From Streptomyces sp. Tue 6430 (lineage in GTDB: Bacteria; Actinomycetota; Actinomycetes; Streptomycetales; Streptomycetaceae): a stretch of DNA of 64,000 nucleotides. Position 1 is the stretch's first letter. Each line of letters begins with the position of its first letter. The notes beneath the pieces are model-generated. The model saw only the letters and a list, made by a program, of their open reading frames with translations, was not told the DNA's origin and ran no database searches. Positions 12,898-38,827 of this stretch are shown in pieces. The translations under genes were made by a program, and so were the position numbers. The stretch spans positions 744,001-808,000 of the forward strand of contig JAKGSH010000001.1 in the NCBI GenBank assembly GCA_021568835.1, read 5' to 3'.

Positions 12898-15495
12898 CTA
12901 CGCCGGCGGGGCGCTGCGGGTGGCGAGCAGCAGGGCTATGTCGTCGGGCCGGTCGGACGCCTGGCGGGCGGTCGCGGTGAGCCGGTCGGCCATGTCCGCG
13001 AGGGAACGCCCCCGCAGGGCGCCCGCTTCGGCCAGCGCCGCCCGCAGGGCGCCGATGCCGTCGTCGATGTCGTGCCCCGGCCGCTCGACCAGCCCGTCCG
13101 TGTACAGCGCCAGCACGGCGCCCGGCTCCAGACGCAGCTCCGCCACCGCGTACCGGGCGCGGGCGTCGACGCCGAGCACCATTCCCTCCGGCAGGTCCAC
13201 GACGCGCGTCCGTCCGTCCGGGTGACGCAGCAGCGGCGGAAGGTGCCCGGCGTTGGCCACCCGGGCCAGACCGGTCGCCGGGTCCAGACGGACGTAGCAG
13301 CAGCTGGCGAACTGGCCGGGGTCGAGGTCGATCAGCAGGCGGTTCGTGCCGCCCATGACCTCCTCGGGCGGCCGGTCGCTCAGCGCGAAGGCCCGCACCG
13401 CGCTGCGCAGTTGCCCCATGGTCGCGGCGGCCTGCACCCCGTGTCCCTGGACGTCTCCGATGACCAGGGCCAGGCCGTCCCCGGCCTCCACGACGTCGTA
13501 CCAGTCGCCGCCCACCTCCATGCCCTCGGTGCCCGCCAGATAGCGTCCCGCGGTCTCCACGCCCGCGTGCTGCGACAGCCGCCTCGGGAGCAGGGCCTGC
13601 TGGAGCCCGCGCGCCAGGGCCGCCTCGGTGTCGTAGCGCTGGGCCTTCTCCATCGCGTGGGCGATCAGTCCGGCGAGTGCGGTCAGGACGGCGCGCTCCT
13701 CGGAACGGAAACTGCGCGGGCGGTCGAAGCCGAGGATGCACGAGCCGACCGCGCGGCCGGAGGCGATCAGCGGGAGGAAGGCGCGGGCGCCCTCCGCCGC
13801 GTCCATCGCGATGCCGGGGTAGGCCTCGGCGAGCTGCTCCATCGAGTCGAAGAAGAGGGGGCGGCCGGTGGTGAGGGTCTCCACGCCCGGCAGCCGGGCG
13901 TCCAGCCCCACGCCCTCGAACGGCGCCAGGAAACCCTCGGGGAAGCCGCTCTCCCACGCCAGGTACAGGTGCCTCTCCTGCAGCAGGTAGATGGCGATCC
14001 GGCGGCCGCCGAACGCGGGCAGCAGCTCCTGCATGACCACCGCCGACACCTGACGCGCGGTCACCGCCTCCGTCAGTGCGATGGCCAGCGCGATGGGCCG
14101 GTACGGCGGGGCGGTCGAGGCGGCGAGATCCGGCGCGGGCGTGCCGGTCTCCGGGTCGGCGGGAGGCTCCGGGGCCGGCCCGGCGGTCGTCGGCGCGCCG
14201 GCCCCGGCGGCCGCCGGGGCGTGGGGCACCCGGCTCGCCGGGACGGCGGTGCAGGTGAGGACGTCGAGACCGGGGTAGACCGCCAGACTCAGCCAGTCGC
14301 CCTCGTACGGGCGCGGGGCCGCGGGCCGGTCACGCCCCGGCCGGCCGTCCCGGCTGCCGGCGTCGTCCGGGCGGGGCTCCCCGGAGTCGGGCCGGCGGAC
14401 GTGGAAGTGCACCGGCTCCGGGCACAGCAGGGCGCCGCGCAGGTGTTCCTCGCACGCGGGCTGGTTCAGCCACGGCACGGCGTCCCACAGGGACCGGCCG
14501 AGCAGCAGGTCCCGGGGGACGCCCAGGAGGTGCGCGGCGCGCGGGTTGGCGTAGACGACCAGCCCGAGCCGGTCGAGGCAGAAGACGCCCTCGGGCAGCA
14601 GGTCGGCGGCCCCGTCGGCCAGGGTGCCCGGACCCGGGTCGAAGAGGACGCCGGTGACGGGACGCGGGCCGGAGGCGGGCGCCACGGTGCCGGAGGGCCA
14701 CAGCTCCAGCAGGCGCAGGCCGCCGTCGAGGAGGCGGATCCGGACGGGCCGGTGCCGGGGCCGGCCGTGGGCGGTCTCCCGCAGCAGGGCGGGCAGCCGG
14801 TGGGCGTCGGCCGGGTCGACGTACCGGGTCAGGGCGGCCGGCGTGCCCGGTTCCCGGTCCACGGGCAGGCCCAGCAGGGTGCGGGCGGGGCCGTCGGCGG
14901 TGACGGCGTCGGTGGCCGGGTCCCAGGTCAGGTGGCCGAAGCGGCCGGGGGGCGGGCCCATGGCGGGCGGGCGCACGCACAGCGGCTCGGCGTCCCAGGT
15001 GACGCCGCCGCCCGCCGCCTCCCTCCGCAGCAGGGCGACGCCCAGGTATTCGGCGACGCGCCGCAGGCGGTCGCTCTCGGCCAGTACCGCCGCGGCGTCG
15101 TCGGCGGCCGGCCGCAGCACGGTCAGCACCCCGAAGGTCCGGCCCGCCGCGCCGACGGGCACGTTGAGCGTCCCGAACTGGAACGGCAGTCCGGCCGCGA
15201 ACTGCGGATAGCGGCGCATGGCCTCCGTGGCGTTGGCGAGGACCACCGGGACGCCCAGCCGGTAGGCGTCGGCCACCGGGAACGGGCGGTCCACGGTCAC
15301 CCGGTCCCAGGGACGGAACAGGGGACCCGGCAGACCGGAGAGGACGGCGAGCCGCAGGAGCCCGGGCGTGCCGGAGCACAGGTACAGGCCCCCGGCCCGG
15401 CCGCCCGCGGTCCGCAGCCCGTCGGCCACGGCCCCGGCCAGCAGCGCGGCCGGCGGAGCGGGCGGCTCCCGCCGGTCCCCGGCGCTCCCAGTCAT
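12898..15495 (-). CDS. Cytosolic GAF/PAS SpoIIE-type PP2C phosphatase
   Basis: 865 residues, intact. N-terminal GAF-like region (residues about 15-150, LYLCSGTPGLLRLAVLSG), PAS regions (FGHLTWDPATDAVTADGPA; GVFCLDRLGLVVYANPRAAH around 330-350), a Pro/Ala linker, a second GAF (about 445-610) and a C-terminal SpoIIE/PP2C domain with GGDWYDVVEAGDGLALVIGD, GHGVQAAATMGQLR, NAGHLPPLLRHPDG, LALYTDGLVERPG and PDDIALLLA. It lacks transmembrane helices and a C-terminal anti-sigma kinase domain, unlike the neighbour at 9.8 kb. The start at 15495 is supported by GAGGTGGG just upstream. It likely dephosphorylates anti-anti-sigma factors in response to a cytosolic or redox cue (inference). Confidence 0.9.
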   Translation of the reverse strand: MTGSAGDRREPPAPPAALLAGAVADGLRTAGGRAGGLYLCSGTPGLLRLAVLSGLPGPLFRPWDRVTVDRPFPVADAYRLGVPVVLANATEAMRRYPQFAAGLPFQFGTLNVPVGAAGRTFGVLTVLRPAADDAAAVLAESDRLRRVAEYLGVALLRREAAGGGVTWDAEPLCVRPPAMGPPPGRFGHLTWDPATDAVTADGPARTLLGLPVDREPGTPAALTRYVDPADAHRLPALLRETAHGRPRHRPVRIRLLDGGLRLLELWPSGTVAPASGPRPVTGVLFDPGPGTLADGAADLLPEGVFCLDRLGLVVYANPRAAHLLGVPRDLLLGRSLWDAVPWLNQPACEEHLRGALLCPEPVHFHVRRPDSGEPRPDDAGSRDGRPGRDRPAAPRPYEGDWLSLAVYPGLDVLTCTAVPASRVPHAPAAAGAGAPTTAGPAPEPPADPETGTPAPDLAASTAPPYRPIALAIALTEAVTARQVSAVVMQELLPAFGGRRIAIYLLQERHLYLAWESGFPEGFLAPFEGVGLDARLPGVETLTTGRPLFFDSMEQLAEAYPGIAMDAAEGARAFLPLIASGRAVGSCILGFDRPRSFRSEERAVLTALAGLIAHAMEKAQRYDTEAALARGLQQALLPRRLSQHAGVETAGRYLAGTEGMEVGGDWYDVVEAGDGLALVIGDVQGHGVQAAATMGQLRSAVRAFALSDRPPEEVMGGTNRLLIDLDPGQFASCCYVRLDPATGLARVANAGHLPPLLRHPDGRTRVVDLPEGMVLGVDARARYAVAELRLEPGAVLALYTDGLVERPGHDIDDGIGALRAALAEAGALRGRSLADMADRLTATARQASDRPDDIALLLATRSAPPA

Positions 15496-29450: not shown

Positions 29451-29792
29451 TCACGCGCCGCCGGGTCCCGGTCCGGGGCCGCGGGTGTGGTCCGCCTCGT
29501 CCTGGGCGAGCAGGGAGAGCAGGGCCGCCACCGTCAGCCCCGCCTCGGCGGGATGGCGCAGCACCTTGCCCGGTTCGATCCGGTAGGTGTTGCCGCGCCC
29601 CTCCCGGGTGTGGGACAGGTAACCGTCCTGCTCCAGGTCGGCGATGATCTTCTGGACGGCGCGTTCGGTCAGTCGGCAGCGCGCGGCGATGTCGCGGATC
29701 CGGGTCGTCCGGTCGTCCGCGATGACCGCCAGCACGCGGGCGTGGTTCGTCAGGAACGTCCAGCCGGTGTGCGATTCGGGCAGTCCTCCCAT
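29451..29792 (-). CDS. Winged-helix (MarR/ArsR-like) transcriptional regulator
   Basis: 113 residues with a winged helix-turn-helix: HARVLAVIADDRTTRIRDIA, then ARCRLTERAVQKIIADLEQD (recognition helix), then GYLSHTREGRGNTYRIEP as the wing. Relatives are common in Streptomyces and annotated only as HTH regulators. ATG at 29792 begins MGGLPESHTGWTFLTNHARV, the normal family start. A GTG at 29825 is also in frame. It is divergent from the STAS-ANTAR gene (29918), so the 125-base gap may hold its own operator. Confidence 0.85.
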   Translation of the reverse strand: MGGLPESHTGWTFLTNHARVLAVIADDRTTRIRDIAARCRLTERAVQKIIADLEQDGYLSHTREGRGNTYRIEPGKVLRHPAEAGLTVAALLSLLAQDEADHTRGPGPGPGGA

Positions 29793-29917
29793 GCCGCAAT
29801 CGTACGACCGGGGATTCACGTACACGAAAACCGGAACGGGATTTCCTGTATCGATTGACGCATCGCGGGTAGCGGAGTGAGGCTGGGAAGGTGAGGACGG
29901 TGACCGGGGAGGCGGTC

Positions 29918-30718
29918 ATGGCAGAGCTTGCGTACGGCACGGGTCGCGGCGCGGGAGAGGGCGGCCCGGGGGCCGGGAGGAGCGGTGCGCCGCACGCCCG
30001 GTCGATGCCCTGGGTGTCCCTGCACGCGCGCGGTGACCGGATGGCCGTGGAGGTCCGCGGCGAGCTGGACCTGGACGCCACCGAGCAGCTCGAGCACGCC
30101 CTGCGGGCGGCACTGGCCGCCGCGGTCGGCGCCGTGGAGCTGGACCTCGGTGCCGTCGTGTTCTGCGACTGCGCCGCCCTGAACGTCCTGCTGGAACTGC
30201 GCGAGCGGGGCTTGCGGCAGGGCAAGAGGGTCGTCGTGCGCTCGGCCGCCCCCGCGGTGGAGCGGCTCCTCGAACTGACCGGCACGGCACGGCTGTTCGC
30301 CGACGTCGAGACCGACACCGGCACCGCCGCCGACACCGGCACCGACGTCGATCACCGCTCCGCGGACGACGCGCTCGCCGCCGGACCGCCGCAGGGCCCC
30401 GGCGGCGAACGGAACCTGCACGTCGAGGTCGTCCAGCTGCGGCGGGCCATGCGGACCCGTCCGGTGATCGACCTCGCCCGCGGCATCCTCATGGCCTCGT
30501 TCGCCCTCAGCGCGCAGGACGCCTGGCGGGTGCTGGTCGATGCCTCCCAGCACACCAACACCAAGCTGCACCACCTCGCCCGCGACCTCGTCGGCGCCGT
30601 GGAGGGGGACCCGCCGCCGGAGGCCGTCCGGGAGCAGGTGGCGGCTGCCGTCGCCCGGGTCCGCTCCGAGTCCCCGGCGGGGGAGAGGGGCGAGAGGGCC
30701 GACCGCGTCGACGGGTGA
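29918..30718 (+). CDS. STAS-ANTAR fusion regulator
   Basis: 266 residues. Residues about 30-130 form an STAS (anti-anti-sigma) domain: VSLHARGDRMAVEVRGELDL, AVELDLGAVVFCDCAALNVL and a long helix ending RLFADV. A linker with Asp/Thr repeats leads to a C-terminal ANTAR RNA-binding domain (about 175-235): LRRAMRTRPVIDLARGILMA, SFALSAQDAWRVLVDASQHT, then TKLHHLARDLV. Known for the families: STAS domains are phosphorylated by anti-sigma kinases, and ANTAR domains bind paired RNA hexaloops to block termination. Here the STAS segment has Cys-Asp-Cys at the usual phosphoserine region, so regulation may be unusual. GGGGAGG precedes ATG 29918. Confidence 0.88.
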   Translation: MAELAYGTGRGAGEGGPGAGRSGAPHARSMPWVSLHARGDRMAVEVRGELDLDATEQLEHALRAALAAAVGAVELDLGAVVFCDCAALNVLLELRERGLRQGKRVVVRSAAPAVERLLELTGTARLFADVETDTGTAADTGTDVDHRSADDALAAGPPQGPGGERNLHVEVVQLRRAMRTRPVIDLARGILMASFALSAQDAWRVLVDASQHTNTKLHHLARDLVGAVEGDPPPEAVREQVAAAVARVRSESPAGERGERADRVDG

Positions 30719-31042: not shown

Positions 31043-32995
31043 TTGTCGGACTGGGAGAAGTCGAGCACGGCCCGTGTGGTGCCGCCCGCGCGGCCCCGCA
31101 AACTCGCCAAGGTCCCCTTCGTCGAACTGGCCGACGGACGCCTCCAGGGCGTCGTCTCCAGCGGCTCGGACATCGAGCGCGTGTACGTCTCGTCGGTGGC
31201 CGCCGGGACGTACGCGTTCGCGTGCAGCACCAACAACAACCGCCCCTGCGGTGGTGCGCGCGGCTCGTACTGCAACCACATCCGCGCCCTGATCACCGAG
31301 GCCGTCCTGCAGTACGGCGCCGAGCGCGTCGCCCGCTACCTGCGCGTCGAGCCTGCCGGCGGGGAGGCGACGGTCCCCGGCATCACCGACGCCATGACCG
31401 CCACCCGGCCCGCCCCGGCCGACGGCAAGACCTCGGCGGCCTCCGTCTTCAGCCGCTTCCTGCGGCACCTCGCCTACCTCGAACTCGCGCCCACCACGGT
31501 CCCGTCGCCCGAGATGCAGTGGTTCCCGCCGACCCGGACGGCGGACGCCACCGGAGCGCCCGCGCCCGTTTCCGCGCCCGGCACGGAAGCGGAAACGGAA
31601 GCGGGGCTCGCGGACCCGCTGACCGCCCCCGTCGACGGACTCGACGAGGCGCTGGCGGCGGTCGACGCCCTCGACCGGGCCCTCGTCGCGGGTCTGCTCC
31701 GCCCGCAGCCCGCCCGCGTCGCCGACCTGGCGGAACTCGCCCGCGCCGTGGCCGGATCGCCGCTGGCCGCCCGGGTCGCGGAAGCCGTCGAGAAGGCGGC
31801 GGCGGGAGCCGCGGGCGAGGACCACCTCGTCGCCCTCGCCGCCGCCCGCACCGCCCTCCTGGGGGCCGCCCATGACGCCCTGACGGCCCGCGCCGACGAG
31901 AGCACCGGCCGCACCCGCGGCGAGGCCGCGGCACCCGTTCCGGCGCCGCGGCAGACCGTCAACCTGCTGCTGGCCGCCCGGACCTGGCTCGCCGACCTCG
32001 CCCGCGCCGGCTGGCAGGGCATCGACCACGAACTCGTCGGATCGGCCGCGCAGATCGTCTCGGCGATGCTGCCCGACCCCACCCTGCGCCGACTGGCCAC
32101 CCTGCTCGACGGCTTCGCCGCCGAACTCGCCGCCTCCTGCCCCGGCGCCGCCCTGGACCGTTTCCCCGCCCGCCGCTGGGGCGACCTGTGGGCGCGTGCC
32201 CTGCTGCTGACCCGGCCCGGCGCCGCCGAGCCCGCGCCGACCGTCCCCGCCACCGGCCGTCTGCTTCCCCTCGGCGTCGACCTGCACGAACACGCGACGG
32301 CCGCCCAGGCGCAGGTCCACGCGGTGTTCGAACCGGCGGACGGCGGGGCGGCCCGCCTGGTGCGCGCGAGCGTCTCCGTGCCCAAGCCGGACACCGTCGT
32401 CGCGGCGGGCGTCTGGCAGCTCCTGCGGCCCCACCTGGCGCTGCTCACCGCCCTCGGCGAAGGCCGGTCCATGCAGCTCACCGACATGCCCCTCACCGAG
32501 GACGGCGACCTGATCTGGGACGACGACCGGGCCCGCCCGGGTGAACCCGCCGACGCCTTCGCCGCCGCCCGCGTCGCCCTCCCGGCCGCCACGGCACCGC
32601 CCACCGCACCGCTGGACCGCCACCCCGCGCGCCTGGCCGAACCGGTGTTCCTGGAGGGCTACGAAGCCCGGCAGGAGGGCGACTCCACGATCGCCTTCGG
32701 TTTCGCCGGACACACCCTCGCCGTGGACACCGACCGCATCCCCGCCGCCGGTCCCCTCACCCCCGGGGCGGTGGCCGCCTCCAGCGCCTGCATCGGCCTG
32801 CTGCGCTGGGACGACGGCGCGTTCCACCTCCAGCCGCTCGCCGTGGAGACCACGGTGCGCAGGAGGACCACCGCCCTCCAGGCGGGCGCCTGGGCGGGCG
32901 GCACCACCGACAAGACCGGCGCCAAGGCCGAGAAGGCCGCCACGGACGCCGTGACCGTCCTGCGGGAGCGGGCGGGAAGGCTGCTGCGCAAATGA
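31043..32995 (+). CDS. SWIM-type zinc-finger protein, YehQ-like (operon gene 1)
   Basis: 650 residues. Near the N-terminus Cys61, Cys69, Cys77 and His79 (FACSTNNNRPC then GSYCNHIRALI) form a SWIM-like C-C-CxH metal site. The rest is Ala-rich and helical, with several globular blocks (LDRFPARRWGDLWARALLL; FEPADGGAARLVRASVSVPK). In E. coli the SWIM protein YehQ is encoded with a VWA protein and a MoxR ATPase, the same set as here. The start is TTG at 31043, preceded by AAAGGAG. Translation from there begins SDWEKSS, whereas the open frame upstream is low complexity. Its stop overlaps the VWA start by 4 bases (ATGA). Function unknown. It may act as the substrate or nucleic-acid-binding part of the complex (inference). 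Confidence 0.85.
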   Translation: MSDWEKSSTARVVPPARPRKLAKVPFVELADGRLQGVVSSGSDIERVYVSSVAAGTYAFACSTNNNRPCGGARGSYCNHIRALITEAVLQYGAERVARYLRVEPAGGEATVPGITDAMTATRPAPADGKTSAASVFSRFLRHLAYLELAPTTVPSPEMQWFPPTRTADATGAPAPVSAPGTEAETEAGLADPLTAPVDGLDEALAAVDALDRALVAGLLRPQPARVADLAELARAVAGSPLAARVAEAVEKAAAGAAGEDHLVALAAARTALLGAAHDALTARADESTGRTRGEAAAPVPAPRQTVNLLLAARTWLADLARAGWQGIDHELVGSAAQIVSAMLPDPTLRRLATLLDGFAAELAASCPGAALDRFPARRWGDLWARALLLTRPGAAEPAPTVPATGRLLPLGVDLHEHATAAQAQVHAVFEPADGGAARLVRASVSVPKPDTVVAAGVWQLLRPHLALLTALGEGRSMQLTDMPLTEDGDLIWDDDRARPGEPADAFAAARVALPAATAPPTAPLDRHPARLAEPVFLEGYEARQEGDSTIAFGFAGHTLAVDTDRIPAAGPLTPGAVAASSACIGLLRWDDGAFHLQPLAVETTVRRRTTALQAGAWAGGTTDKTGAKAEKAATDAVTVLRERAGRLLRK

Positions 32996-34478
32996 CCGAG
33001 CCCGAGACCGAGACCGAGAGCGGCGTCCGGCGCACGACCGAGACCGCGACCACCCCCACGCCAATCACGACAACCGCGACAACCATGCCGGCCACGACAA
33101 CCGCCGGCAGGTCCTCTACTGGCGTCTCCTGGCCCGCCTCTTCGACCCGGAGGAGCAGGCCGCACTGGAGTCCGCGAGCCTCGCCGTCGTCGAGGACGTC
33201 GGCCTGCCGCCCGCGCTGCTGGACCCGGGAGCCTCCGTCGACTCCATCGTGCAGCGCCACCCGGAGCTGGCCGCCGAGTTCGACGGCCTGATGGTCCCCG
33301 AACCCGAACCCGAACCCGATACCGACGCCGACGACACGCGTGACCGTCCGGCCGAGGTGCGGCGCGCGGCCCTCGTCTCCAAGGTGCTGCTCAACGTCTT
33401 CGCCACCGGCACCGGAGCCGTCAGCGCGGGTCAGCTCGCGCGCTGGCAGTCCGACGCCGGCTGGCTGGAGCGTGCGCTCGGCTGCTCGCCCGGCGACCTG
33501 CGCGGCGGTCGGGCCGGCGGCGGCCGCGGCGTCGGCCCGACCGGCTCGGGCGGCAACGGCCGGACCCCCGACCTCAGCCGGCTGATCCCGCAGATCGGAC
33601 CCGAACTCGGCGCCCTCGAAGGCGACCTGGTCAAGCGGATGCACCTGCGCGAGGTGCTCGCCGATCCCGCGCTCGCCGCCCGGCTCACCCCGAGCATGTC
33701 GCTGATCGAGCAACTGCTGCGGGACAAGAACAATCTCTCCGGAGTCGCCCTCGCCAACGCCAAGGCGCTGATCCGCCGGTTCGTCGACGAGGTCGCCGAA
33801 GTGCTGCGCACCCAGGTGGAGAAGACCACGGTCGGCGCCCTCGACCGGTCCGTCCCGCCGAAGCGGGTGTTCCGCAACCTCGACCTCGACCGCACCATCT
33901 GGAAGAACCTCACCAACTACAGCCCCGAGGAGGAGCGGCTCTACGTCGACCGCCTCTACTACCGGCACACCGCCCGCAGAACCACACCGCAGCGGCTCGT
34001 CGTCGTGGTGGACCAGTCCGGCTCGATGGTCGACTCCATGGTCAACTGCACCATCCTGGCCTCGATCTTCGCGGGCCTGCCGAAGGTCGACGTCCACCTC
34101 ATCGCGTACGACACCCAGGCGCTCGACCTGACTCCCTGGGTGCACGACCCCTTCGAGACGCTGCTGCGCACCCACCTCGGCGGCGGCACCGACGGCACCG
34201 TCGCGATGGCCCTCGCCCAGCCGAAGATCGCCGAGCCGCGCAACACCGTCGTGGTGTGGATCTCCGACTTCTACGAGTGGCGCGGCGAGCCCCTCTACGA
34301 CAGCATGGCCGCCCTGCACCGCTCGGGGGTCAAGTTCATCCCCGTCGGCTCGGTTACCAGCTCCGGCCGCGGCAGCGTCAACCCCTGGTTCCGGGAACGC
34401 TTCAAGGACCTCGGCACGCCGGTGCTCTCCGGTCACATCCGCAAGCTCGTGCACGAGCTGAAGACGTTCCTCACCTGA
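32992..34478 (+). CDS. VWA-domain protein, YehP-like (operon gene 2, apparent frameshift)
   Basis: 495 residues after repair. One C is missing from the run at 33053-33057. With it the reading becomes TTPHANHDNRDNHAGHDNRR, QVLYWRLLARLFDPEEQAAL and onward. The C-terminal 190 residues form a von Willebrand A domain with the MIDAS motif DQSGSM (VVVVDQSGSMVDSM), a conserved Thr in GGTDGT, and SDFYEW. The middle is helical (RLIPQIGPELGALEGDLVKR). VWA proteins work as metal-dependent partners of MoxR ATPases. Translation overlaps the SWIM gene by 4 bases. After its stop comes an unusual 57-nt pyrimidine tract before the ATPase gene. Confidence 0.88.
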
Positions 34479-34509
34479 GACGCCCGCTGCGTCGCCCTCT
34501 CCCCTCCTG

Positions 34510-34566
34510 TCTCTTCTCTCCCCTTTCCCTCCTTTCCCCTTTCTTCTTTTTCTTCTTTTTCTTCTT
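34510..34566 (+). other. 57-nt uninterrupted polypyrimidine tract between VWA and AAA+ genes
   Basis: Every base from 34510 to 34566 is C or T on the coding strand, ending in T-rich TTCTT repeats. With the neighbouring 34495-34508 it covers about 70 bases broken by a single G. This is very unlike the rest of this GC-rich window and lies between two genes of one operon. Confidence 0.9.
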
Positions 34567-34594
34567 GCTCGCCCTTCCGCAGAAAGGCCTGTCG

Positions 34595-35707
34595 ATGTCC
34601 GACCTGTTGCGCGCCCCCGCCGAGATCAAGTACGCCGAGGAACTGGACTGGCTGGAGTCGGTGGACGACAACCCCAAGCCGTTCTCCTGGCGGCTGTCGC
34701 CCAAGATGATCCGGCTGTTCGTCCTCGGCTCCGAGCGGGCGGACGGCCTCGACCGGGACGTCTCCCAGAAGTGGTTCGGCGACCGCAGCATCGTCGAGCG
34801 GGCCATCGTCACCCTCGCCTCCGACCGCGGCCTGCTGCTCATCGGCGACCCCGGCACCGGCAAGAGCTGGCTGGCCGAGCTGCTGGCCGCCGCCGTCTGC
34901 CGCAACTCCACCCAGGTAGTCCAGGGCACCGCCGGCACCACCGAGGACCACATCAAGTACTCGTGGAACGTGTCCATGGTCATCGCCAAGGGCCAGTCCC
35001 GCGAGTCGATGATCCCCTCGCCGATCATGACCGCGATGGAGACCGGCACGATCGGCCGGTTCGAGGAACTCACCCGTTCCACCAGCGACGTCCAGGACGC
35101 CCTGATCTCCATCCTGTCCGAGAAGTACATCTCGGTCCCCGAACTCGACAGCGACGGCATCGTGTTCGCCAAGCCGGGCTTCTCCGTCATCGCCACCGCC
35201 AACAGCCGCGACCGGGGCGTCAACGACCTGTCCTCGGCCCTCAAGCGCCGCTTCAACTTCGTCCGCATCCCCGTCGTGACGAACAAGAAGAGCGAGGCGG
35301 AGATCGTCCGCTTCCGCACCGAGGAACTGCTGCGCCGCCACCGGATCGAACTCGACGTCCCACCCACCCTGCTGGACGTGCTGCTGCAGAGCTTCGCGGA
35401 CCTGCGCGCCTCCGCCGCCGCGGCGGCCGGCGACGACGAGAAGCTGGAGTCCGCGCTGTCCACCGCCGAGCAGATCGGCGTCCTGGAGGACGCCGTTCTG
35501 CACGGCGACTTCTTCGGCGAGCGCGCCCTGACCGCACGCACCCTCGCCGCCTCCCTGGTCGGCTCCCTCGCCCGCCGCGACCCCGAGGACCTCGCCATCC
35601 TCAACAAGTACCTGCACGGCGTCGTCGAGCCGCGCAGCAGGGAGGAGGGGGGCTCCTGGCCGGAGTTCCTGGAGGGCGGCCGCGACGCGATCGCGACCCT
35701 GTCGTGA
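34595..35707 (+). CDS. MoxR-type AAA+ ATPase, YehL-like (operon gene 3)
   Basis: 370 residues. Walker A GDPGTGKSW (about residues 88-96), the second conserved block IGRFEELTRSTSDVQDALIS in the Walker B region, sensor 1 in VIATANSRDRG and arginine-finger segment LSSALKRRFNFVR. The lid domain follows. This matches MoxR-family ATPases that remodel protein complexes together with VWA partners. ATG 34595 has AGAAAGG 8 bases upstream. The frame is open further 5' but would encode a poly-Phe stretch across the pyrimidine tract, so the later start is right. The stop overlaps the DUF5682 start by 4 bases (GTGA). Confidence 0.93.
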   Translation: MSDLLRAPAEIKYAEELDWLESVDDNPKPFSWRLSPKMIRLFVLGSERADGLDRDVSQKWFGDRSIVERAIVTLASDRGLLLIGDPGTGKSWLAELLAAAVCRNSTQVVQGTAGTTEDHIKYSWNVSMVIAKGQSRESMIPSPIMTAMETGTIGRFEELTRSTSDVQDALISILSEKYISVPELDSDGIVFAKPGFSVIATANSRDRGVNDLSSALKRRFNFVRIPVVTNKKSEAEIVRFRTEELLRRHRIELDVPPTLLDVLLQSFADLRASAAAAAGDDEKLESALSTAEQIGVLEDAVLHGDFFGERALTARTLAASLVGSLARRDPEDLAILNKYLHGVVEPRSREEGGSWPEFLEGGRDAIATLS

Positions 35708-38500
35708 GCGCCCCGCCCGAGGGCACGTTCGGCGCCCTGCGCACCCAGCTCCAGGACGCGGCGACCGCGTTCGCCGACGGACCCGGCGCCCTGGAGGGGA
35801 TCCTCCGCGGCATCGTCGACGACGTCGAGCGCGCCGTGCGCGAGCCGCTGGAGATCTTCCCGGTCTGCCACCACTCCCCGGCCTCGGCGCTCGCCATGGC
35901 CCGCCGGCTGCGCGAGAAGCAGCCGAAGGTGGTCTACCTGGAACTGTGCGAGGACATGGCGCCCCTCCTCACCGAGCTGCGCAACTGCCGCCTCCCGGTG
36001 GCGGTACAGGCGTTCGCGACCGAGGTGGAGGGCTTCCCCGCCGACTGGTCACCGCTGTCGGTGGTCGCCCCGGTCACCGAGGCCTCCGCCGAGTACCAGG
36101 CGATCGCCTACGCCCTCGACACCCCGGGCGTCGAGCTCGTCCTCGTCGACCGCTCCTCGGACCACGTCTTCCAGTGGGAGACCCCGCCCGCCGCGGACCC
36201 CGACCCCGACGCGCCGCCCGCCGACGAGGAGAGCGTCCTGCACGGCGACGCGGTCGGCGTCGAGATCGGCGACCTGCGGCCCCGCTTCGCCGAACTGGAG
36301 GAACACCTGCTGCGCCACGGCCGGGTGCGGCACTGGTCGGAGTGGTGGCACCAGTACGTCGAACTGCCGCTCGGCGACAGCGACCACGACACCTACCGGC
36401 AGGTCATGCTGCTCATCGGCAGCCTCTTCCGGCGCCTGGCACCCGGCGACCGGCGCCGCGTCCGGGTCGACGAGGACCGCGAACGGTACATGTGGACGCG
36501 GATGCGCGAGCACCTCGCGGCCACCGGCACCGACCCGGCCGACTGCCTCTACGTCTGCGGCGCGTTCCACGCCGCCAGCCGCGTCGAGGAGTTCGGCGTC
36601 GACGGCAGCGACGGCTTCACCATCACCCCGCCCACCCCCACCACGTGGCGGCACGGACTCATCCCCTCCAGCCACGCCGCGATCGAGGCGCAGTTCGGCC
36701 TCGCCGCCGGATCGGTGTCCATCGCCGCGTCCGAATGGGCCAAGAACCTCAAGCGGACCGGCGTGCGGCCGTACCGCCTGGAAGGACAGGCCGGCACGAA
36801 GAAGAGCACCCGGCCGAGGAAGGCGGCCGTGCCCGCGCCGCCCGCCTCCCCGGCCCCGCCGGCCGACCGGCTCACCGGGTTCCTCCGGCGGCCGCCCGCC
36901 CTCGACCCCCTCGACGAGGCCGAACTGCTCGGCTGGTCGGTGGAGATCGTGCGGGCCGCGCGGCGCAACGGCTACCTCGCCTCCACCGCCGACGCCATCG
37001 CCGTGTTCGAGACGTCGATCCTGCTGGCCGGGATGCGCGACCGGGTCCGCCCGACACCGTACGACTTCCAGGACGCGGCCGTCACCTGCATCGAGAAGGA
37101 AGCCGTACCGGGGCGGCGCGACGTCGGCCGGCTCGTCGAGATCATGATGGGCGGCGACCGGATCGGCCAGGTCGGCTACGACGCGCTGCCGCCCCTCGCC
37201 CGGGACGTCCACGACCGGCTCGCCCCGCTGAACCTCAGGCTCCAGCAGCGCGGCGTGCAGCGCGCCCTGCTGGACATCGCCGGCCGGCCCGAACTGGAGC
37301 GCTGCTCCGACGTGCTGTGGATGCTGCGCCGGCTGCTGCCCCAGGGCGCCGCCCGGCCGATCATGGGCGACCGGCGCCTGGGGAGCGCGCCATCCAGGAG
37401 TCCTGGGACCTGGCCCTGGGCACCCACCAGCGCGCCCTCATCGAGCTGGGCTACGAGGGCGTCAGCATCGAGCAGGTCCTGGAACAGCGGCTGCGGCGCG
37501 CCGCGTACGCCCCGCAGGCGACGGCGGCGCAGGTCCTGGAGACCGTCGAGGACGCCGTCCTCCACCTGCGCAGCCGCCGCCTCGCCGACGAGCTGGGCAC
37601 CCGCGCCCTGGAGGTCCTCGCGGCGGAGCGCACCGTGGACGGCGCCCCCGAGGTGCTGCGCCGCGTGCGCCGCCTGCTGGCGTACTACCGCACCGCCGAG
37701 CCGGCCCTGCCGCCGTGGATCGAGTCCTTCGTCACGACCGGCTACGCGCACTACTGCACGCTGCTGCCGACGGCGTTCACCGACGAGGACGCCACCGTCC
37801 GGCAGGTCGCGGCCATGCTGGGGTTCCTCTTCGGCATGGAGGGCCTCGCCCTCTCCCTGGGCTGCGACCGCACGCAACTGGAGCTGGCCCTCGCCCAGTC
37901 CCGTCCGGGGAGCCGTCGCGCACGGCGCTGCTGTGGGCGGCGCAGACCCACCTCGGCACGCTGTCCCGGACGGACCTGCGGGCCCGCTGCGACGAGCTGC
38001 TCGGCAACCCCCTGGTGGTGCCCGCCTATCCGCGCTACCTCAGCGGGTTCGTGCACGCGCTGGAACCGGTGCCGCACCTGGCGGACTTCGTCGTCGAGGC
38101 GGTGTCGAACGCCTTCGCGCGGCTCCCGGACCCGGTGCTGCTGCCCTGGCTGCCGACGCTGATCACCAGTCTGCGGGCGGGCGGCGCGGAACTGGCCCCG
38201 CTGCTGATCCGCGAGGCGGGCCGCGTCTTCCCGGCCCGGCTGGCGGAGCTGGACTCCTGGACACCGCCGTGGCGCGCCCCGCAGGAGCCCGCGGCCGTCC
38301 CGGCGGACCGGCCGGGCGGCGCGGCCCGCGGCGCCGCCCTCCTCCCCGCGCATCCGGCGACGTGCGACGCGCTGGCGGAGCTGCTCGGCTGCGAGGGCAC
38401 CTGGGAGAGCCCCGCCGCGGACACCCCGCCGGGGGCCGCGCTCCTCACCGCCCACCCGGTGACCGCGACGGCGCTGGAGGCACTGCTGGCGGCCGGCTGA
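35704..38500 (+). CDS. DUF5682 family protein, YehM-like (operon gene 4, two apparent frameshifts)
   Basis: 932 residues after adding one G to each of the G4 runs at 37380-37383 and 37907-37910. The repaired joins are DRRLGERAIQESWDL and SRPGEPSRTALLW. The N-terminal part has a conserved look: PLEIFPVCHHSPASALAMAR, KVVYLELCEDMAPLL, DRSSDHVFQWE, then CLYVCGAFHAASRVEEFG, with His and Glu residues that could be catalytic. The C-terminal half is helical repeats. DUF5682 proteins are co-encoded with MoxR and VWA proteins in many bacteria, and the function is unknown. GTG 35704 overlaps the ATPase stop. A perfect hairpin terminator follows 20 bases after the stop, closing the operon. Confidence 0.87.
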
Positions 38501-38520
38501 CGGCGGCCGGCTGACGCGCG

Positions 38521-38563
38521 ACGGGCCGGCGCACCGTGTTCGGGCTGCGGTGCGCCGGCCCGT
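38521..38563 (+). terminator. Perfect 15-bp hairpin terminator of the four-gene operon
   Basis: Arms 38521-38535 and 38549-38563 are exact inverted copies with a 13-base loop. Confidence 0.88.
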
Positions 38564-38827
38564 CCGCTGCCGGACGGACGTCCCCGGGCACCGCCCGGCG
38601 GTGAACGCCCGCCGCGGGAGTGAGGGGAGTGGCGGGAGCGGCCCGACACCCGCCGTCACCGGTGTCGTCGCGGGACGGCGGCCCGACTCCGCATATCAGT
38701 ACGGGAGTTGAGCATCCGTGCGGGCCGGCGTCCCCCGCCCGGGTTGTTCACGGGCACCCGCCGCGTGCGTACGGGTGCACCGGGCAGATCCTCCGTGACA
38801 GAACGCGCGAGGGCGAGGAGCACGCCG

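Follow-up and report, generated by a model that had tools for sequence, protein, structure and literature searches.

In the window, a stretch of 64,000 nucleotides from Streptomyces sp. Tue 6430 (G000:C3:744001-808000; genome of 8.18 Mb, assembly of 10 contigs, 85.5% complete), a block was found on the plus strand (31043-38500) which combines an AAA+ pair of the MoxR-VWA kind with a DUF5682 protein of predicted TIKI type. Its collinear coding regions are arranged in the order of gene 1 (SWIM-like), VWA, MoxR and DUF5682. The block may well encode one ATP-driven hydrolase machine, because DUF5682 carries the invariant TIKI residues and the predicted fold beside the MoxR-VWA pair. The nearest relatives of the window DUF5682 are from named Streptomyces.

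TIKI-like domain and MoxR-lid-like segment of DUF5682

The signature residues of the N-terminal domain of DUF5682 were compared among 87 DUF5682 sequences and with the known families TraB (PF01963), ChaN (PF04187) and Ere (PF05139). Both His motifs, the Glu and the Arg-acid-x-x-Met motif are invariant in the 87 sequences (Table 1). The first His motif of TraB/TIKI proteins is named GX2H; its first Gly corresponds in DUF5682 to G in 57 sequences, P in 21 and a gap in 9. The spacing from the first His to the Glu is 24 in all 87, the superfamily criterion being 24-28 (TraB 26, ChaN 28), and that from R259 to G286xxH289 is mostly 27-30, with a range of 25-39 among the values listed (TraB 27). A second catalytic Glu (GExH) was not found in DUF5682, residue 54 being V or I in 85/87; the GExH Glu marks Ere, ChaN and RRSP and not the whole superfamily, since the TraB set also has no invariant Glu there. 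Because TraB was not found in the 61 relatives, the yardstick sequences were drawn from other genomes. His57, E130, D149 and E220 are invariant in DUF5682 beyond the TIKI set.

By profile comparison, the N-terminal domain matched ChaN with a probability of 80.5 and unrelated controls with at most 0.3. A Pfam scan of 10 DUF5682 proteins at E ≤ 10 gave ChaN weakly in 3 (best 0.029) and did not list TraB or Ere, so that the likeness lies below the family cut-offs. In the predicted structure of the domain, a central parallel beta-sheet is flanked by helices, as in the TIKI common core, and the nine best structural matches of the model were EreC, an Ere-like protein, RRSP and a likely TraB protein, with modest Z. 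The ChaN structure 2g5g, which matches the ChaN profile, was not among the structural matches listed. Matches of the full-length model were dominated by helical entries, and no relative was obtained when the solved structures were searched with the sequence of the first DUF5682 piece. The A2 profile returned five designed or natural pentatricopeptide-repeat chains from the solved structures (best E 4e-4), which were judged a chance likeness of helices. The N-terminal domain thus carries the residue set of the TIKI-superfamily hydrolases and is predicted from the model to share their fold. The preliminary description of this DNA had read DUF5682 as enzyme-like from two His segments, which are the counterparts of the superfamily's two His motifs.

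The middle segment of DUF5682 is linked by profile to the MoxR lid, and a helical part is present too. In YehM, the E. coli member, the counterparts of the TIKI-type residues are H11, E35, R175 and H202; with YehM and DUF5682 placed in a hydrolase superfamily and these residues named for mutation, the operon, which occurs in many phyla, becomes open to study as an enzyme. A functional reading can now be offered for the DUF5682 family.

Co-inheritance and subtypes

The 37 actinobacterial loci fetched by a DUF5682 match had MoxR adjacent in 37/37 and VWA in 34/37, and the three without VWA stop at contig ends. When named genomes were scanned with 10 diverse DUF5682 proteins, at least 511 relatives were obtained, of which 80 were kept; this sample is biased to loci with the two His motifs, which were used as search patterns. 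MoxR was found near DUF5682 in 74 of the 80, VWA in 71 and a SWIM protein in 68. In the loci with at least 6.5 kb on each side, MoxR, VWA, DUF5682 and the SWIM protein occurred together in 57/58, the exception being a Hydrogenophaga metagenome-assembled genome (L122), in which VWA and SWIM stand about 6 kb further downstream, separated from DUF5682 by other sequence (L122:11800-17790). According to the record titles, the 80 loci belong to Proteobacteria, Actinobacteria, Bacteroidetes, Planctomycetes, Verrucomicrobia, Cyanobacteria, Acidobacteria, Myxococcota and Chloroflexi, together with one Lachnospiraceae. The preliminary description would have been contradicted by a gene set confined to close relatives; the set was instead found to be conserved across many phyla.

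Four subtypes were assigned from the gene order and the SWIM motif. Subtype A has SWIM and, where tested, DUF5691 adjoining MoxR-DUF5682-VWA; in subtype B, MoxR is followed by a single open reading frame (ORF) holding both DUF5682 and VWA (5/5 intact loci); subtype C is the window type; and subtype D shows the E. coli order, MoxR-DUF5682-VWA-SWIM, with DUF4132/YehI commonly standing upstream. DUF5682 and VWA are also in one frame in the D-like locus L121. A YehI-like ORF was found in 49/60 B/D loci, 2/26 A loci and 3/32 others, and PF13569 matched 24 of the 27 upstream proteins scanned, a set which includes three A-type neighbours and YehI itself. In subtype D (L091-L168), a long DUF4132 protein, often with WGR, precedes MoxR as yehI precedes yehL, and represents a fifth conserved gene. 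The neighbours of the subtype A loci L025, L071 and L073 presumably include a B12-binding methylmalonyl-CoA mutase subunit, and those of L071 and L073 also what we take to be succinyl-CoA synthetase subunits.

Trees of MoxR, DUF5682 and VWA were built for 61 loci, of which 20 are of subtype A, 5 of B, 12 of C and 24 of D. In all three trees every subtype formed an exact bipartition, with support of 0.76-1.0 and no partner swapping. Pairwise-distance correlations were r 0.835, 0.750 and 0.943, against within-type shuffle maxima of 0.766, 0.701 and 0.894, respectively. The parts of the block travel together despite the changed gene order, and a single genome can hold up to three of the copies.

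Besides its own genome, the window-type DUF5682 was near full length in 12/60 relatives, 8 of them within the 36 same-genus genomes, and DUF5682 occurred in 21 of 296 genomes drawn evenly from the own phylum. A close relative was found in 5 of 72,556 plasmid records; phage records gave no match, and none of the viral contigs encoded a close relative. On a 927-kb Streptomyces plasmid (NZ_CP023408.1, L214), an N-6 DNA methylase is encoded in the vicinity of the window-type block, as is a DNA-binding protein of type IV secretion.

Layout of the block

The coordinates of the features are listed in Table 1. The junctions are a 4-base overlap of gene 1 and VWA (ATGA, 32992-32995), a 116-base gap between VWA and MoxR (34479-34594) and a 4-base overlap of MoxR and DUF5682 (GTGA, 35704-35707). 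Among window-type relatives, the first overlap was -4 in 12/12, the gap 12-148 bases in 12/12 and the last overlap -4 in 12/13 (-1 in L037). A long C/T-rich tract is present in the VWA-MoxR gap (34520-34570), which is unusual given the 75% GC sequence. Three 4-base overlaps or a short gap and one terminator had been described for the block: two such overlaps are present, the third junction being the gap, and the block is followed by a long, strong hairpin that lacks a U tract and is missing from the list of the consensus terminator scanner. That the genes are one unit agrees with the overlaps conserved among relatives and with the co-inheritance of the parts. Of the 8 proteins flanking the block, three recur near L027 and one has a distant response-regulator match near L034, while none of the 8 was found at the remaining 12 of the 14 window-type loci, some of which are short; the unit is therefore the block itself, as the flanking proteins seldom recur.

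Table 1. Features of the block (positions in the window; residues numbered within the respective protein).
Feature	Position	Strand	Evidence
Gene 1, SWIM-like zinc-ligand protein, 650 codons	31043-32995	+	TTG start at 31043, AAGGAG upstream
Zinc-ligand motif C-x7-C-x7-C-x-H, gene 1 residues 61-79	31223-31279	+	In 12/13 window-type N-terminal fragments
VWA_CoxE gene	32992-34478	+	Pfam 9.8e-30; frame broken between about 32995 and 33100 in the assembly
VWA metal ion-dependent adhesion site (MIDAS), DxSxS (DQSGS)	34011-34025	+	Motif
MoxR-type AAA+ ATPase, 370 aa, YehL-like	34595-35707	+	AAA_5 1e-36; 40% identity to E. coli YehL over 340 residues
MoxR Walker A (GDPGTGKS)	34844-34867	+	Motif
DUF5682 gene, GTG start	35704-38500	+	Pfam DUF5682 1.2e-23; GTGA overlap with MoxR
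Predicted TIKI-like domain of DUF5682, residues 47-360	35842-36783	+	Profile, structure model, motifs
First His motif, H56-H57	35869-35874	+	His-His in 87/87 sequences; window type PVCHH, most relatives GVRHH or GIRHH
Predicted catalytic Glu, E80, 24 residues past H56	35941-35943	+	87/87
Arg-acid-x-x-Met motif, R259-E260-x-x-M263	36478-36492	+	87/87; compare R-D-x-x-M of Ere
Second His motif, G286-x-x-H289	36559-36570	+	87/87
MoxR-lid-like segment of DUF5682, residues 392-500	36877-37203	+	Profile link to the MoxR lid
Hairpin 3' of the block, possible terminator without U tract	38520-38564	+	z -3.48; equalled by 0/200 shuffles

The AAA+ protein has Walker A and Walker B and the VWA protein has a MIDAS, as is proper to a MoxR-VWA remodelling pair. 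Gene 1 is a SWIM-like zinc-ligand protein by its motif: YehQ and the other subtypes carry CxC...CxH, and the window type has C-x7-C-x7-C-x-H instead. The name SWIM given in the preliminary description was too strong, as gene 1 has this variant motif, no SWIM match (PF04434) in Pfam at E ≤ 1 and no profile link to YehQ (probability 2.5; its two parts, 0.3 and 2.9); no decisive match came from Pfam, NCBIfam or PADLOC. PF04434 was matched by YehQ and one subtype A protein tested and was unmatched by one B and one D protein tested. In 10/13 window-type loci gene 1 is split into a short SWIM-like ORF and a longer ORF, which overlap, whereas it is single in the window, L027 and L031; a megaplasmid copy is annotated as two genes of 173 and 464 codons, respectively.

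The window DUF5682 runs through three successive frames, with changes near 37370-37390 and near 37895-37910, and the ATG at 32992 lies in another frame than the VWA body, whose frame stays open up to 34478. An intact single-frame DUF5682 of 932 aa (P0001) is 99% identical to the window copy over the 555 residues compared. Two further DUF5682 loci of subtypes A and B are present in the own genome (G000:C2:3996567-3998803 and G000:C2:55029-57685), both frame-broken. Assembly indels are the likely cause of the frame breaks, because the 10-contig assembly has a completeness of 85.5% and both other loci are broken as well; gene decay is less likely. A programmed frameshift in DUF5682 was rejected, since single-frame relatives exist and the assembly is poor. 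The window frames were left uncorrected and intact relatives were used for the analyses.

In the surroundings, a small helix-turn-helix gene and a STAS-like gene stand 5' of the block (29451-30718), and L027 is the only other locus with these two genes before its block; a pyruvate carboxylase likewise follows further downstream there. An ARAGORN call of a transfer-messenger RNA at 13716-14127 has an odd tag and is probably a false positive.

Proposed mechanism and rival explanations

The target would be bound by the VWA protein via its MIDAS, perhaps together with the zinc-ligand protein. VWA might then engage the pore of the MoxR hexamer, by analogy with NorD in NorQ, and DUF5682 might dock on the MoxR ring via its lid-like segment and helical scaffold. 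ATP hydrolysis would remodel the target and deliver it to H56, E80, R259 and H289 of DUF5682, which would activate water and cut a peptide (or an ester or amide) bond. The division of roles in the preliminary description, with recognition by SWIM, presentation by VWA, force from MoxR and action by DUF5682, would agree with these data. The lid-like segment and the DUF5682-VWA fusion are contacts beyond those in the preliminary description. A further-reaching proposal, which we hold as tentative and none too probable, is a new class of ATP-driven protease, in which a VWA-set MoxR ring would feed the TIKI peptidase DUF5682 locked on via its own MoxR-lid copy; its four co-inherited subtypes, up to three of them per cell, would range from E. 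coli K-12 to Streptomyces.

DUF5682 might be the client instead, matured or activated by MoxR-VWA (e.g. through metal or cofactor loading) as NO reductase is by NorQD, and might then act alone. According to PMC13036017, NorQD remodels its client and inserts iron; among the related MoxR-vWA systems, the literature names CoxD-CoxE and Mg-chelatase; and ChaN, the nearest profile match, is haem-binding according to Pfam. Against a passing client, the fusion of DUF5682 with VWA in 5/5 subtype B loci and the lid-like segment suggest a standing part of the machine, and we regard a client role as rather doubtful. A binding scaffold is the least probable reading: DUF5682 would keep the TIKI fold for binding only, and the unit would be an assembly chaperone without hydrolysis. 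Non-hydrolytic members of the superfamily are given in the excerpts available, namely PMT and a TraB-family subunit of Tetrahymena complex IV, and the MoxR-VWA pairs described there are remodellers; the TraB nature of the Tetrahymena chain is taken from a figure legend, because the TraB and ChaN profiles did not return this chain from the solved structures. Full His/Glu/Arg/His invariance across 87 diverse sequences would be unusual for a pure scaffold.

A conflict (e.g. anti-phage) system of the MoxR-vWA kind, with DUF5682 as effector or switch, is unlikely. Four MoxR-vWA ternary conflict systems are described in PMC7159879, and the window-type copies are patchy (the 12/60 relatives above) and occur on 5 plasmid records. 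PADLOC matches, by contrast, were weak and restricted to the block's own ATPase (mad8 1e-6) and VWA (TerY 0.0015) with some weaker ones, which are likely family-level matches. For the flanks, 75 of 116 near-flank ORFs were scanned by PADLOC, and 26 others and YehI went to the Pfam scan of upstream proteins; 21 PADLOC families were matched in the 75, none of them in more than 3, as counted in near flanks with no far-flank baseline. The matches were too scattered for a defence island beside the block. No phage match was obtained, and another subtype adjoins metG and mrp in E. coli K-12, which likewise speaks against a conflict system.

If the hydrolase machine holds true, AAA+ remodelling by a MoxR-VWA pair would be joined to TIKI-type hydrolysis, a pairing which was not found in the literature searched. 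DUF5682 was not found there by name; most subscription journals lay outside the coverage, and earlier work may exist. No function for the E. coli yehL operon was found in the same literature. In the excerpts available, E. coli K-12 has two MoxR ATPases, one of which is YehL; yehM is mentioned in PMC10652928 and PMC12795559, and PMC3893208 mentions YehL only.

Comparison with known systems

DUF5682 resembles the TIKI hydrolases (TraB, Ere, RRSP) and ChaN in the His, the Glu, the Arg-acid-x-x-Met and the Gly-x-x-His, in the ChaN profile match and in the modelled fold. It differs from TIKI hydrolases by lying below the Pfam cut-offs, by the extra invariant residues, by the lid-like and helical parts and by being encoded with a MoxR-VWA pair.

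With pairs of the NorQ-NorD type, the block shares a MoxR AAA+ protein and a MIDAS-bearing VWA protein, whereas its fixed companion is DUF5682 and not a metalloenzyme gene. In NorQD, according to PMC13036017, the MoxR-type pore receives a finger of the VWA protein, and the client is remodelled by rotation. The ternary conflict systems of Kaur et al. (2020, PMC7159879) likewise have a MoxR-vWA couple with a constant third partner; in the window block this partner is DUF5682, and by term counts DUF5682, yehM, SWIM and TIKI do not occur in that paper. The window MoxR matched PF20030, the profile of the beta-propeller ternary systems, at E 0.008 and 15.7 bits, below the cut-off of 27. The third component expected in such systems is VMAP, iSTAND or FtsH; the only match of the DUF5682 pieces at E ≤ 1 was DUF5682 in a general Pfam scan, in which no VMAP- or iSTAND-specific profile was used.

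In E. coli K-12, the order MoxR-DUF5682-VWA-SWIM corresponds to yehL-yehM-yehP-yehQ. The family set had been equated with that of E. coli, and MoxR (40% identity), DUF5682 and VWA do match, with a zinc-finger-type protein adjacent in both, but the genes are arranged differently. The SWIM protein of E. coli is a true one (PF04434), and DUF4132/YehI stands upstream there, whereas gene 1 of the window has no YehQ profile match. Because gene 1 matches neither PF04434 nor YehQ, the window block is a variant, rather than a plain member, of the YehL-YehM-YehP-YehQ system.

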